In this document: positions 8,353 to 16,182 of the stretch, one piece after another
How the letters are laid out: each line of letters starts with the position of its first letter
Position numbering within the stretch: the stretch's first letter is position 1
NCBI GenBank assembly: GCA_947631845.1
Contig: CANRMY010000019.1
Location: 1 to 39,599 of the forward strand
Source: an uncultured Oscillospiraceae bacterium
GTDB lineage: Bacteria > Bacillota > Clostridia > Oscillospirales > Oscillospiraceae
Direction: 5' to 3'
Length of the DNA: 39,599 nucleotides
The notes under the pieces: model-generated
What the model was told of the DNA's origin: nothing
The model's input: only the letters and a program-made list of their open reading frames with translations
Database searches by the model: none
Made by a program: the position numbers and the translations under genes

Positions 8353-8380
8353 TTGTCTTTTTGTTATACAGCTGTATAAT
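8353..8380 (+). promoter_or_regulatory. blaI promoter
   Basis: TTGTCT (8353-8358), 16-base spacer, perfect TATAAT (8375-8380). The -10 overlaps the right half of the first operator palindrome, the arrangement expected for autorepression. Confidence 0.7.
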
Positions 8381-8405
8381 AAAGCTATGTTATACAATCG
8401 TATAA
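8364..8405 (+). promoter_or_regulatory. paired BlaI-type operators
   Basis: TTATACAGCTGTATAA (8364-8379) is a perfect 16-bp palindrome; TTATACAATCGTATAA (8390-8405) has perfect 6-bp arms. Their centres are 26 bp apart. TACA/TGTA half-sites are the known BlaI/MecI recognition core. One covers the -10 and one lies between the start point and the ribosome site, so BlaI probably represses its own operon. Confidence 0.75.
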
Positions 8406-8418
8406 GGAGGGCTGTTCT

Positions 8419-8790
8419 ATGAAAAAGCTGGGCGACGCGGAGCTGGAGATCATGCTGACGGTCTGGGCGGCGGAGGAGCCGGTGACCTCGGGGGTCGTCA
8501 GCGACGCGCTGAAGGGCCGCCGGGACTGGGCGCTGCCGGCGGTGGTGACCAGCCTCAACCGGCTTACGGAGAAGGGCTTTTTGCGGTGTGAGAAGCAGGG
8601 GCGCGTCAATCTCTACTCCCCTCTCATCTCTGAGCGCGACTACAAGGCATCTGAGAGCCGGGGGATCCTCACCAGGCTCTTCGGCGGGAGCGTCTCGGGT
8701 CTGGCGGCGGCGCTCTACGACGGCAAGGCCATGGGGGAGAAGGAGATCCGTGAGCTGAGGGCATTCCTGGACCAGCTGGAGGGAAAATGA
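8419..8790 (+). CDS. BlaI/MecI-family transcriptional repressor
   Basis: 123 residues with the family's winged helix at the N-terminus: LGDAELEIMLTVWAAEEPVT, then a helix-turn-helix whose recognition part reads ALPAVVTSLNRLTEKGFL, then the wing CEKQGRVNLYSPLI. A helical dimerisation tail includes LTRLFGGSVSGLAAALYDG. Members bind TACA-TGTA palindromes as dimers and are cleaved when the BlaR1 partner senses its ligand. Two matching operators lie just upstream. AAGGAGG is at 8404-8410. Its stop overlaps the former blaR1 ATG by one base. With blaR1 broken at the 5' end, derepression may be impaired. Confidence 0.92.
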   Translation: MKKLGDAELEIMLTVWAAEEPVTSGVVSDALKGRRDWALPAVVTSLNRLTEKGFLRCEKQGRVNLYSPLISERDYKASESRGILTRLFGGSVSGLAAALYDGKAMGEKEIRELRAFLDQLEGK

Positions 8791-8816
8791 TGGAGCTTAT
8801 ACTAATATCTATTTAA
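8790..8816 (+). pseudogene. severed 5' end of blaR1
   Basis: The native blaR1 start: ATG GAG CTT then the mobile element, which reads through to a TAA at 8814-8816 (eight residues, MELILISI). Removing the 163 inserted bases rejoins ATG GAG CTT ATA CTG CGT and restores a frame that continues, without interruption, into the large downstream reading frame. Confidence 0.85.
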
Positions 8817-8959
8817 AAGTAGACACCGAGCGGCGAGGATTTTTCGTGTCAGGCGAGGAAGACGCCGCAGGGAATACCCTTTGGTATTTCCAAGGCGGCT
8901 GACAAAGCATGGCGCGAAAAAGGCCGCCGAGAATGTCTTGTTTTAATTAGATATTAGTA
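8800..8959. mobile_element. 160-bp MITE inserted in blaR1
   Basis: Terminal inverted repeats: the left end at 8799-8818 and the right end at 8940-8960 match at 19 of 20 positions when one is complemented (ATACTAATATCTA-type ends). Flanking TTA at 8797-8799 and 8960-8962 suggests a 3-bp target duplication; a TA duplication with a 161-bp element fits equally well. The interior folds back on itself around GGAATACC-CTTT-GGTATTTCC (8871-8891). No coding capacity. These are the traits of a non-autonomous miniature element moved by a transposase encoded elsewhere. Confidence 0.85.
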
Positions 8960-8966
8960 TTATACT
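8938..8966 (+). promoter_or_regulatory. hybrid promoter made by the MITE end
   Basis: TTGTTT (8938-8943) inside the element's right end, exactly 17 bases (8944-8960), then TATACT (8961-8966) that belongs to the original blaR1 codons. It could transcribe the remaining blaR1 frame, with a leader of about 40 bases before the GTG at 9013. Confidence 0.45.
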
Positions 8967-9012
8967 GCGTGTACTCAAGTGGAGCGTCCTGGCGGGGGCG
9001 GCGACGGCCCTG

Positions 9013-12000
9013 GTGACGGCGTTGAAGCCCCTTTTGGACAGGCGTTTTACGCCCCGGTGGCGGTACTGGCTGTGGCTGGCGCTGGCCGCGGCCCTGCTTC
9101 TGTCCCCCCTGCCGCTGGATTCCCTGCTCCCGGCCCTCCCGGAGCCGGCCGTCACGGTCACGGCCCCGGAGATCCGCGTCCCGGCGCCGGCGGCAAGCCG
9201 TCCCGCGCCGGAGGTCCCCGTTATACCCGTGATCCCAAACGATCCCGTGAAGCCCGATCATCCCGCGACGCCGGTCGTTCCCGTAACGCCGGACATCCCC
9301 GCGGCATCGGATACCCCCGTAACGCCGGGGAATCCCACGGGTTCCGGGATGCCCGCGACGCCGGGTACGCCCCCCACCGGCACGGCGGGGCGCCGGACGG
9401 TGGCGCTCTCCACCCTCCTGACGGCGGTGTGGCTTCTGGGCGCGGCGGCGTTCGCCCTGTGGTACATGGCGGGGACGGTGCTTTTAGAGCGGCGGCTCCG
9501 GCGGTGGAGCGTGCCGGCCGTCGGGGCGATCGACGCCCTGTGCCGGGAGCTTTCCGGGGAGCTGGGCCTTTCAAAAGCGCCCAAAGCCGGCGTCAGCCGG
9601 GGCCTGACCTCCCCCCTGGTGACGGGCCTCTGGCGGCCCCGCCTGTGGCTGCCGGACCGGACCTGGGAGGGCCGGGAGCTGGAGCTTGTCCTGCGCCACG
9701 AGCTGACGCACATCAAGCGCCGGGATCTGGGGTACAAGGCCCTGATGCTGGCGGCCAACGCCCTGCACTGGTTTAATCCGCTCATCTGGCTCATGCGCCG
9801 GGAGGCGGGCGAGACGGTGGAGCTCCTGTGCGACGCCCAGGCCCTGCGGGACGCGGATCAGGACACCCGGCGGGCGTACTGCGAGGCGCTTTTGGCCAAC
9901 ATCCGCCGCGTGCGCGGCGCGGCGCTGACCACCTATTTTTACAGCGGAAAATCTTCCGTGAAGGCGCGTTTTAAAAACCTGCTCTCCGGCCGCAAGCGCC
10001 GCTTCGGCTGGGCGGCCCTGGCGTTCTGCGTGCTGGCGGTGACCGTGACGGCCTGCGCCGTGGGCGTCGGCGCGTCCACCGCCATCGCCCCGGAGGAATT
10101 CGACGGAACATACACGGCCAACTGCTTTAAATACGTCTTCCTCCGGGACGAAAACGGCGAGCGCATCCAAGACAAGGCGGTGCTGATAAACTCCCTTGAC
10201 CAGCTCAAAAAGCTCCGCCGGGACAACGGCATTGAGTCCCTGGACGAGGGGTATAGGGTCATCAACGGCGAGCTTACGGAGCGGCTGGACGCGTACACAA
10301 AGGACTATTTCCGTGAAAACGTCCTGGTGGTGCTGATCCGCGAGATGGGCTCCGGCTCCTTTGAGCTGTCGGTAAAGGGCGTGACCCTGGACGGGGACGC
10401 CGTGGCGGTAACGGTCAGCTCCTACAACCCCACGGCTCCCACGCAGACCATGGATCTGTGCCAGTGGTGCGTCCTGGTGGAGTGCCCTCGGGTGGAGGGC
10501 GTCACCGCGGTGCAGTGTACCTTTAAAGCAGAGGATCAGCAGGGCGACGGCGCCCCGGACGCCGTTGCCGACGCCCTGTCCGCCGCCGGGAACGGGTTTG
10601 CGGCCCGTGTCGCCGCCGCCTTGGAGGAACGGGTCGGCGCGCGGGTGCAGGCGGTCTTTCCTCAGGACTATTATCAAATGGCGGAGCTCGCCTATAACGG
10701 GTCTCTCTACCGGGTCTACGACTGGCAGTACAGCCTCACCGTTACGGAGCCGGTCTATCCTTACGACAGCGTGCGGTTTACCCTGGATTCCGGGGAGACC
10801 ATCTGCCTGCGCAGAAGCGCCTGGTCCGCCTACAGCGAGGAGCTGCCCAGCGCCTTTGCCGTCCGGATCAATGAGGATCTGACCGGCGCGCCGGAGATTT
10901 TGGAGACGCTGACCGCCGCCGGGGTTGCCGCCCACAGGCGCGACTGGACGGGGTATCTCTCGGAGCTCTCCGGGAAGACCGCGCCCCACGAGCCCACGAC
11001 AGCGGACCGGGCGGAGCTCATCGGCCGTCAGCTCGTCTGGGGGGAGTTCGGGGGCGTTGTGAAGGTAAAAGAGGGGGAGGAGGTCTCCAGCTTCGTCCTT
11101 TCTGAGGAGGAGCTGGCCGGTGTGCAGGCGGCGCTCACGGGCCTTCACTGGATGCCCAGCTCCGTGTCCTCCCGCTCCTGGAAGAACGACGACATGTGGA
11201 TCCTGGCGGAGAGCGGCGACGGGCGGTATGCCGTGCGCCTGGGGTTGGCCTACGGGCCGGTGGAGCTGACGGCGGAGGGATCATACGCGCTCTTTGAGCT
11301 CCCGGAGGCGGAGTACGCCGGGCTTTGGCGGGAGCTTTTCAGCGCGGCCCAGCGCGCAACCGAGGACGCCGTTTTTTCCGGCGTCAGCGCGGACAGATCT
11401 CTCTCCATGGACGAGGCGGCCGAGGCCATTGGTCAGGGGATCGCCGCCGCCATCCGCGACCTGCCGTCGTGGGTGGCGTGGAAGCCGCTGGACGTTCAGT
11501 TTACCGGCGCTTCCGTGTCTGACGCGTACCGGGGGGAGCCTGAGAGCTTCCGCGCCGGCGTGAGCATCGCCCTGAAATTTACCTCCGACGACCCGGCGGA
11601 CCCGGGCCGGAGCTTCTGGGAGGCCGGGTCGGGCCTGCCGGACGAGCCTATCAGCGGCGGCGCGCCGGACGGATATTACGCGTGGAATCGGGAGATCTGC
11701 GTCTGCCGGGACAAGGCGGGCCAGTGGGTACTCACCGGAATGAACGCCGGCGGCTCGACGGTGTCCGTCCCCGGCTGGATGTACGCCTCGGATGTGGAGA
11801 GCTCCTTTGAGCGGGCGTCCGTGGAGGAGCTTCTGCGCCTCTATACCCTCTCCGGCGGCGATCTCCACGAGTATATCGTCATGCTCCTGTGCCGGAAGAC
11901 CCCCCGGGAGCTGGAGAACATCGGCTCCGCCCTGGCCGCGCTGTCCCCTGAAGCGCTCCAGGAGCTTTCCGGCCAGGTAAAAGGCTATATCCAATGGAAC

Positions 12001-12066
12001 GGCGGCGTACCCACCACCTCCCAATCCCTCCTCTACGACGCTCTGCGGGCGCTGACGGAGAAATGA
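9013..12066 (+). CDS. BlaR1/MecR1-type M56 metalloprotease sensor, 5' disrupted
   Basis: 1,017 residues from GTG 9013; about 1,038 before the MITE insertion removed the start and first transmembrane helix. Remaining: helix WYWLWL-type at 17-33, a Pro/Thr-rich linker (45-125), helix LLTAVWLLGAAAFALWYMAG (134-154), the M56 zinc site HELTH (229-233) with ETVELLCDAQ (267-276), and a fourth helix (332-352). The remaining 660 residues are extracellular by family topology. I see no penicillin-binding SxxK/KTG pattern there, so the ligand need not be a beta-lactam. The role is to cleave or trigger loss of the BlaI repressor. Without helix 1 the topology of a GTG-initiated product is uncertain and it may be a pseudogene. 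Confidence 0.8.
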   Translation: MTALKPLLDRRFTPRWRYWLWLALAAALLLSPLPLDSLLPALPEPAVTVTAPEIRVPAPAASRPAPEVPVIPVIPNDPVKPDHPATPVVPVTPDIPAASDTPVTPGNPTGSGMPATPGTPPTGTAGRRTVALSTLLTAVWLLGAAAFALWYMAGTVLLERRLRRWSVPAVGAIDALCRELSGELGLSKAPKAGVSRGLTSPLVTGLWRPRLWLPDRTWEGRELELVLRHELTHIKRRDLGYKALMLAANALHWFNPLIWLMRREAGETVELLCDAQALRDADQDTRRAYCEALLANIRRVRGAALTTYFYSGKSSVKARFKNLLSGRKRRFGWAALAFCVLAVTVTACAVGVGASTAIAPEEFDGTYTANCFKYVFLRDENGERIQDKAVLINSLDQLKKLRRDNGIESLDEGYRVINGELTERLDAYTKDYFRENVLVVLIREMGSGSFELSVKGVTLDGDAVAVTVSSYNPTAPTQTMDLCQWCVLVECPRVEGVTAVQCTFKAEDQQGDGAPDAVADALSAAGNGFAARVAAALEERVGARVQAVFPQDYYQMAELAYNGSLYRVYDWQYSLTVTEPVYPYDSVRFTLDSGETICLRRSAWSAYSEELPSAFAVRINEDLTGAPEILETLTAAGVAAHRRDWTGYLSELSGKTAPHEPTTADRAELIGRQLVWGEFGGVVKVKEGEEVSSFVLSEEELAGVQAALTGLHWMPSSVSSRSWKNDDMWILAESGDGRYAVRLGLAYGPVELTAEGSYALFELPEAEYAGLWRELFSAAQRATEDAVFSGVSADRSLSMDEAAEAIGQGIAAAIRDLPSWVAWKPLDVQFTGASVSDAYRGEPESFRAGVSIALKFTSDDPADPGRSFWEAGSGLPDEPISGGAPDGYYAWNREICVCRDKAGQWVLTGMNAGGSTVSVPGWMYASDVESSFERASVEELLRLYTLSGGDLHEYIVMLLCRKTPRELENIGSALAALSPEALQELSGQVKGYIQWNGGVPTTSQSLLYDALRALTEK

Positions 12067-14937: not shown

Positions 14938-16002
14938 TTATTTGATTTTTCGCCTTATTGCCGTTCCGATGTGCCGCCACGCAAAGTACAGCTTTTCAGC
15001 TTTGCGGTAGAGCGCGTAGGTCACGGGCTTATACGCGAAATATACCTCCCCGATGAGACGCACAAGCTCCCCGCCAAACTGCTTCTTAAAGCGGTAGAGG
15101 CCGGAGTTCGGGTCGTTCTCGTCGGTGATCTCCAGAAATCCCCGCAGGTCGTAGACCCCATCGCCCCGGCGGAGAGCGTCGCGGATCATCTCCCACTGGA
15201 GAAGGTGACAGGGCATGGAGGATCGTCCCACCGTGGCGCTGGCCCCATATAAGTACCAGGTGCGTCGGGCGTAGTGGACAGGCATGGCCGCCGCCACGGC
15301 CCTGCCGTCAAGACACGCCAGCATCAGCTTCACGTGCTCCGGCCCCAGCTCGTCCCAGACCCGCCGGTAATACGCCATGGGCCGTATGATAAACCCGTCC
15401 CGGCGGGCCGTCTCCTCCATGAGCCTGTAGAATACGGGGAGGTCCGCCTTCGTTCCCTCCCGAACCTCCACGCCCCGCCTTTGGGCGAGGCGTATGTTGT
15501 ATCGGAGCTTTTTGTGGAATCCAGCGAAGACCTCCTCCTCCGTTTTGCCCCGGAGGTCAATGCGGAACACGCTGCGGGGCTGAATGAGATCGAAGCTGCT
15601 TTTGACTTTGTCCCGGATTTGATACCCCAGGGACTCCATGATCGTCCTGAACGCGCCGTCGCCCTCCGGCACGTCCGGCTCCATCCGCAGGGCCATTGCC
15701 CCGTACCAGCGTGCCAGGAACGCGGCACCCTCGGTCAGCTGCCGAAGAGCGTCCGTATCGTGGATATCGCACACTGGCCCGCGTGGACAATACATCAGGT
15801 TCCCGAACACTGGTATCTTCCTGATCAGCACACTGAGTACGCCGGTGATCTCTCCGGAGCTTCCCTCGGCAACGACGATCTCATTCTCCCAATTCGACTT
15901 CACGCCCGCCCACTTTGTTGATTGCATGAAGTGCCCCATGGGGTGGTTTTCACAAAACCGCTCCGCCAACTCCATATCCGTGTCGTTTCCCACCAAGCGC
16001 AT
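14938..16002 (-). CDS. FemAB/MurM-like peptidoglycan aminoacyltransferase
   Basis: 354 residues, a duplicated-GNAT protein of the FemABX family, which adds amino acids from aminoacyl-tRNA to the peptidoglycan stem or lipid II. Visible hallmarks: GHFMQSTKWAGVKSNWE near the N-terminus, FHKKLRYNIRLAQRRGVEV in the middle, and the C-terminal NSGLYRFKKQFGGEL followed by LIGEVYF. No coiled-coil tRNA arm is obvious. Start: GGGAGG lies seven bases before ATG 16002, while the earlier start at 16023 would include that site in the coding region. In several bacteriocin systems a Fem-type enzyme gives self-immunity (established for lysostaphin and zoocin A). Its place behind an ABC transporter and tiny peptides makes that worth testing. 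Confidence 0.9.
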   Translation of the reverse strand: MRLVGNDTDMELAERFCENHPMGHFMQSTKWAGVKSNWENEIVVAEGSSGEITGVLSVLIRKIPVFGNLMYCPRGPVCDIHDTDALRQLTEGAAFLARWYGAMALRMEPDVPEGDGAFRTIMESLGYQIRDKVKSSFDLIQPRSVFRIDLRGKTEEEVFAGFHKKLRYNIRLAQRRGVEVREGTKADLPVFYRLMEETARRDGFIIRPMAYYRRVWDELGPEHVKLMLACLDGRAVAAAMPVHYARRTWYLYGASATVGRSSMPCHLLQWEMIRDALRRGDGVYDLRGFLEITDENDPNSGLYRFKKQFGGELVRLIGEVYFAYKPVTYALYRKAEKLYFAWRHIGTAIRRKIK

Positions 16003-16182
16003 TTCTTTACCTCCCAAAGTCACCGCTTATTACACCCTATCCAATAGCACCCCGCACCGATTACCGCCACCGGAAACTCGATGCCCTTAAGGGAAGGTAT
16101 CGTAATGTATCCGACTGAAAATTGGCCCAGATAAAAAGCAGATCCCTACAAATAGAGCGCTGTCGATACTATATCAGCGAAT

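Follow-up and report, generated by a model that had tools for sequence, protein, structure and literature searches.

Our analysis indicates that a short mobile hairpin interrupts an M56 peptidase gene within its first codons in the window, by which we mean the whole stretch of 39,599 nucleotides that was analyzed. The best explanation as a whole, to which we assign a probability of roughly 0.88, is that a miniature inverted-repeat transposable element (MITE) spread throughout the genus was moved in trans into a TTA at the start of the M56 gene, after which the peptidase was lost and the repressor encoded next to it was kept bound. The element, its 3-bp TNA duplication, its many other copies and the empty orthologous sites were observed. 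The remaining steps were read from these features, namely that an IS630-family transposase with similar ends would have moved this non-autonomous cut-and-paste element in trans, that proper peptidase would no longer be produced, and that the repressor would consequently remain on its operators. The window insertion represents an ordinary type of genome parasite, well documented here, and the locus provides a clean case, filled in one species and empty in relatives, in which one partner of a repressor/protease pair has been split.

A 160-bp hairpin between two TTAs

The MITE occupies positions 8800 to 8959 and is 160 bp long; it is given here on the + strand, which is the better RNA-folding strand and also the orientation used for the family. 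A TTA target-site duplication flanks it, with the left copy at 8797 to 8799 and the right copy at 8960 to 8962 (neither assigned a strand), as judged from the sequence, 3-mer counts and empty sites. Together, the element and both TTAs cover 166 bases (8797 to 8962), the same interval as in the preliminary description of this DNA, which had reported near-identical inverted ends, a fold-back interior, and no coding capacity. Comparison of the ends placed the terminal inverted repeats at 8800 to 8825 (left, + strand) and 8934 to 8959 (right, - strand), and the inverted arms, at 8799 to 8825 and 8934 to 8960, span 27 nt and are 89% complementary. The 166-nt strand folded at -41.1 kcal/mol with DNA parameters compared to -17.5 ± 2.9 kcal/mol for shuffled sequences (z of -8.2, with 0 of 200 as low), and the 160-bp element is predicted to form one long hairpin along the whole strand. 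A transposase gene would not fit in 160 bp. The observation as first reported was confirmed. No Rfam family matched the 160-bp element, and a known Rfam RNA was rejected as its identity on that basis. Taken with the copies, empty sites, TNA duplication and sister insertion sequence described below, the reading of 8800 to 8959 as a MITE is strongly supported.

Copies in the source genome and the genus

A search for other copies, as had been proposed with the first description, was made in the source genome (2.59 Mb in 119 contigs, 96.5% complete) and gave 36 DNA matches at E values up to 0.001, including pieces and reverse-arm matches. Both ends were present in 20 copies, a number that does not include several fragments (L020, which lies where a contig ends, together with L021, L028, L030 and one weak match to contig C99). 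Flanking 3-mers included, 14 copies were 164 to 166 bp long, five were 265 bp, and one was 72 bp. The copies on contigs C69, C19 (the window) and C14 were identical across 162 bases, which suggests that these three may be young. In the 265-bp copies (L013, L014, L015, L016 and L018), short-form positions 114 and 121 are separated by an additional conserved module of roughly 100 bp, in which a GC-rich inverted repeat is visible. Another copy in the source genome, at L004:1501-1666 (G000:C3:53776-53941), interrupts a gene resembling tRNA-Thr(TGT) close to the anticodon. ARAGORN detected tRNA-Thr(TGT) only in the empty-site form of this locus and, when introns were allowed, read the filled form as a tRNA-Leu with a 166-base intron.

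Many more copies were found in the genus. Among the 60 genomes searched, 26 of the 34 belonging to the genus (source included) contained the element, compared to 0 of the 26 from outside it. A scan of named genomes with the left end returned at least 110 stretches; among the matches listed, 109 were labeled Oscillospiraceae and one (L108) Lachnospiraceae, and by eye all were metagenome-assembled genomes (MAGs) titled "Lapin," a title that suggests rabbit. Two pattern matches in viral contigs agreed over the end pattern only, without a second end, and the presence of the element in viral contigs was rejected. Our literature searches, which covered open-licence papers, found no paper on this MITE family.

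Insertion signature and empty sites

We counted 147 distinct insertions after dropping those less than 40 bases from a locus end or whose second end was not within 340 bases. The element itself measured 158 to 161 bp at 105 of the 147, with the others at 60 to 87, 257 to 262, 280, or 318 to 321 bp. Identical 3-mers, all of them TNA, flanked 112 of the 147 insertions, compared to an average of 46 and at most 66 when the pairing of the 3-mers was shuffled 2000 times, and TNA was present on both sides at 134. The duplication is three bases long, given that the bases adjoining the 3-mer matched at just 31 and 25 of the 147. The 35 insertions without identical 3-mers count against the best explanation; five of these are among the 20 source-genome sites, where the 3-mers were identical at 15 and differed at the others (e.g., TTA/TAA), as expected for decayed or recombined copies.

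The repressor-M56 region was found in relatives by a search with the locus, and the two flanks were then compared through separate searches. At the window site, seven relatives (L243, L246, L256, L257, L258, L259 and L260) were empty, with the flanks abutting and overlapping by 3 bases. Two others, G017 and G030, which were matched by the left flank, were likewise empty, and the exact site was thus empty in 9 of 9 relatives examined among the matches listed. The start of the gene is therefore uninterrupted in these relatives. At other insertion sites, where some rows of the comparison involve dispersed repeats and not orthologous positions, the overlap was 3 bases in most rows and -1, -4 (twice) or 0 in four. 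The duplication had first been given as TTA or TA; TTA is present on both sides, but the empty sites hold one TNA only, so that the TA within is part of the element, and a 2-bp TA duplication was rejected. Mobility was to be considered unlikely, according to the preliminary description, if relatives were all filled or if the ends did not recur; instead, nine relatives are empty and the ends recur widely.

The surroundings of the 147 sites were classified with a rough coding-context score, for which just five window genes served as the training set. Eight sites lay too close to the end of a locus, 65 were noncoding on both sides, 57 were coding on one side, and 17 were coding on both. The two sides were coding on the same strand at 16 of these 17 sites, the window site among them.

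The interrupted repressor-M56 operon

The first gene of the pair (8419 to 8790, + strand) is an intact open reading frame of 123 amino acids that encodes a BlaI/MecI/CopY-type repressor (Pfam Penicillinase_R). Two 6-4-6 inverted repeats, at 8364 to 8379 and 8390 to 8405 with no strand assigned, were read directly before the repressor gene and probably act as operators. An intact BlaI with its operators had been described here; the intact BlaI/MecI-type frame and the two repeats stand, but the protein reached only 65.4 bits against BlaI_of_BCL, for which the cut-off is 180.

The repressor and M56 genes overlap at ATGATG (8787 to 8792), where the former ends, and the element severs the first bases of the M56 gene (8790 to 8799, + strand, read directly) from the remainder (8963 to 12066, + strand, identified from the list of open reading frames and Pfam). 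The insertion is in codon 4 when counted from the ATG at 8790, in agreement with the original claim of a split at the fourth codon, and in codon 5 from the overlapping ATG at 8787. The frameshift and the element-borne stop that had been described were also recovered: the added length of 163 (160 + 3) equals 54 codons plus 1 and thus shifts the frame by +1, and reading from the ATG at 8790 stops at a TAA (8814 to 8816) inside the element, after eight codons. No stop interrupts the downstream frame between the junction and 12066, and its first ATG, GTG or TTG is the GTG at 9013, which by eye falls within the apparent first membrane helix. Given this early stop and the lack of a well-placed standard start in the downstream frame, a normal M56 product is unlikely, and the peptidase would no longer be made properly. 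Non-standard start codons by the junction may still serve the M56 gene.

Pfam found only Peptidase_M56 (PF05569; 141.8 bits, residues 132 to 323) in the 1017 residues of the downstream frame, with no match to a C-terminal penicillin-binding sensor domain at an E value of 0.001, and the protein scored 89.6 bits against NCBIfam blaR1_generic, well below the cut-off of 400. The M56 peptidase portion of the earlier blaR1 assignment is consequently retained, while the name blaR1 should be dropped. Among the 17 window open reading frames scanned, Pfam detected no beta-lactamase. A FemAB-family protein (196 bits) is encoded on the opposite strand about 3 kb beyond the pair, at 14938 to 16023 (- strand). 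In BlaI/MecI systems, a protease releases the repressor. If a proper peptidase is no longer produced, the repressor would stay on its operators and lose its normal release switch, and by analogy with these systems, the locked repressor or altered sensor proposed in the preliminary description is plausible.

Maintenance of the hairpin

With roughly 150 insertions now available, it can be asked whether selection acts on bacterial MITE hairpins at the RNA level. For covariation analysis, we chose 28 copies differing by at least 5% from the 105 of short form. RNAalifold paired 57 positions, and in 19 of the 57 pairs both partners had changed while remaining paired, compared to a mean of 7.2 in shuffles (0 of 500 as high) and 3 to 6 when the partners were slid. 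One explanation, which we place a little short of even odds, is that the pairing is maintained purely at the DNA level, through either arm-templated palindrome repair or a transposase that needs matched ends, with no role for RNA. Consistent with this, covariation reaches the terminal repeats (columns 7 to 11), where a transposase would be expected to bind. DNA events of this kind do not, however, predict the excess of G-U changes that we observed on one strand. That excess was measured in the 50 pairs common to the structures of both strands, which avoids favoring the predicted strand, by a parsimony count on a tree of 96 distinct short-form sequences. Changes away from Watson-Crick pairs led to G-U in 31 cases, to A-C in 13 and to other mismatches in 19, and 31 led to another Watson-Crick pair; the 31:13 ratio of G-U to A-C gave a two-sided binomial p value of 0.0096. 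We take this as a hint that selection may act on RNA, and a provisional one, given that the copies are short, related and possibly recombining.

It is also conceivable, though we consider it unlikely, that the + strand acts as a structured RNA, such as a cleavage site, attenuator or stabilizer, and that this role helps to keep the 160-bp interior, in which case the window insertion would be an accident of transposition. The covarying pairs and the G-U excess both point in this direction, as does the RNA consensus energy, which was -62.7 kcal/mol on the given strand and -37.5 kcal/mol on the other, with 28 of 28 single sequences folding better on the given strand. Several observations weigh against an RNA role: the relatedness of the copies and a possible exchange of sequence between them would inflate the counts; a tree built from 160 bp is weak; the 19 other mismatches are further changes that break pairing in the same 50 pairs; and Rfam offered no matching family. 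The gene context does not favor it either. According to our rough gene calls, at the 113 sites with a scored neighbor on each side, the better-folding strand was opposite to both neighbors at 45 and along both at 23, which between co-directional genes is the reverse of what would be expected of a useful mRNA element. The opposite-strand excess may instead be due to the removal of harmful insertions. The combined proposal of a mobile structured RNA, in which one strand of a genus-wide transposable hairpin would be under RNA-level selection while a TNA-targeting IS630-type transposase spreads it, appears marginally more doubtful than the RNA role itself.

A candidate transposase in relatives

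Whatever keeps its pairing, the MITE likely has its driver in an IS630-family insertion sequence carried by relatives, judging from the ends of the two elements. Searches of the 34 genus genomes for transposases detected PF01609 in 17 and PF13358 (DDE_3) in 4, and scanning the fetched loci for ends revealed an IS630-type element in G016 (L205:912-2019) that is 1108 bp long with both TTAs. Over the terminal 26 bases, it agrees with the window element at 25 positions on the right and at 22 on the left. The crossed comparisons gave 22 of 26 (window left with L205 right) and 21 of 26 (window right with L205 left); the left match is no better than the first of these, and the link therefore depends chiefly on the right end. 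The asymmetric tails beside the ends (GTAGACA left, CAAGACA right) are common to both elements and, together with the right end, are the clear signal of what appears to be kinship between them. A relative of the L205 element in G021 (L220:1071-2184) has TGA/TGA flanks, so that the two IS630-type elements with both ends in hand are flanked by TTA/TTA and TGA/TGA; TNA also precedes each of 15 further insertion sequence ends that were recognized by eye. The L205 transposase lies in two open frames, which are 176 and 278 residues long. Against transpos_IS630 (NCBIfam, cut-off of 100), the C-terminal piece scored above the cut-off at 135.1 bits and the N-terminal piece below it at 60.5 bits, and the transposase matched PF13358 at 81.2 bits, placing it in the IS630/DDE_3 group. 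Whereas the usual duplication of this group is a 2-bp TA, the element here is tied to a 3-bp TNA.

A transposase with the same ends had been suggested as a target for further searching, and a similar-ended IS630 type was indeed found, but in relatives rather than in the source assembly. There, no DDE_3 transposase was detected even at an E value of 10, and a DNA search for the body of the insertion sequence matched the element's own ends and nothing else. Mobilization in trans is what we infer from this, with a source of transposase that would have been lost, gone unassembled, or come and gone on another replicon. The identical copies look recent even though no transposase was found, and a MAG may miss collapsed repeats. 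Pieces of IS630-type elements sit at many contig ends of G016 (C2, C11, C19, C20, C21, C56, C58, C71 and C101 among them), so such elements probably exist in many copies and are incompletely assembled in these MAGs.

That a DDE_Tnp_1 (PF01609) insertion sequence is the partner of the MITE is very improbable. The domain is present in half of the genus genomes, as counted above, and one copy, in L183, is located between MITE ends; however, it is nested within the MITE, with both halves left, and 0 of 30 fetched loci (of a longer match list) had TACTAATATC-type ends as their own with up to 2 mismatches in 13 bases. The nesting led us to reject this candidate. The L183 insertion sequence itself (L183:1286-2984, G030:C2) is about 1.5 kb and lies near the top of the hairpin.

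Least probable of all is a false insertion through misassembly at a repeat, which the three copies identical across 162 bases and the contig that ends within a copy (L020) could suggest but which we rejected, given that a repeat chimera would join unrelated flanks, whereas here both flanks form one contiguous locus in nine relatives and both TTAs are present.

Comparison with known repeat families

The features of a bacterial MITE were all found here: a short sequence with inverted ends and no transposase gene, dispersed copies, a target duplication with empty sites, and ends shared with an autonomous element, from which we infer that an IS630-type transposase may have moved it. The closest likeness by description is to RUP, the repeat unit of pneumococcus. 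In the available parts of the sources, RUP is a small noncoding repeat that occurs about 110 times in a single pneumococcal genome, with ends that resemble an IS630-family element (IS630-Spn1), a paired secondary structure and occasional gene disruption (PMC3049150, PMC2229807). Both repeats are small and structured, and in both cases an IS630-family element probably provides the movement in trans. RUP, however, is a 107-bp repeat of Streptococcus with TA-containing targets, whereas the present element is mostly 158 to 161 bp, targets TNA and occurs in Oscillospiraceae. The TA dinucleotide duplication of a RUP-like, IS630-mobilized MITE was replaced here by a 3-bp TNA.

Correia/NEMIS and ERIC elements, as far as they are covered in one of these sources, are repeats of about 100 to 200 bp that have inverted ends and yield transcripts folding into long stem-loops (PMC2229807); the element is like them, by description, in being a short repeat with inverted ends and a hairpin, and differs in its hosts. 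Fot-type pogo elements of the IS630-Tc1-mariner group are stated, in the portion of the source available, to make 3-bp TAA duplications (PMC7386202), and the length of the duplication is therefore not in itself new to this transposase group. The likeness extends to a 3-bp duplication within one transposase group, with the difference that Fot belongs to the pogo superfamily, whereas the element associated with the MITE is a bacterial IS630 element with TNA.
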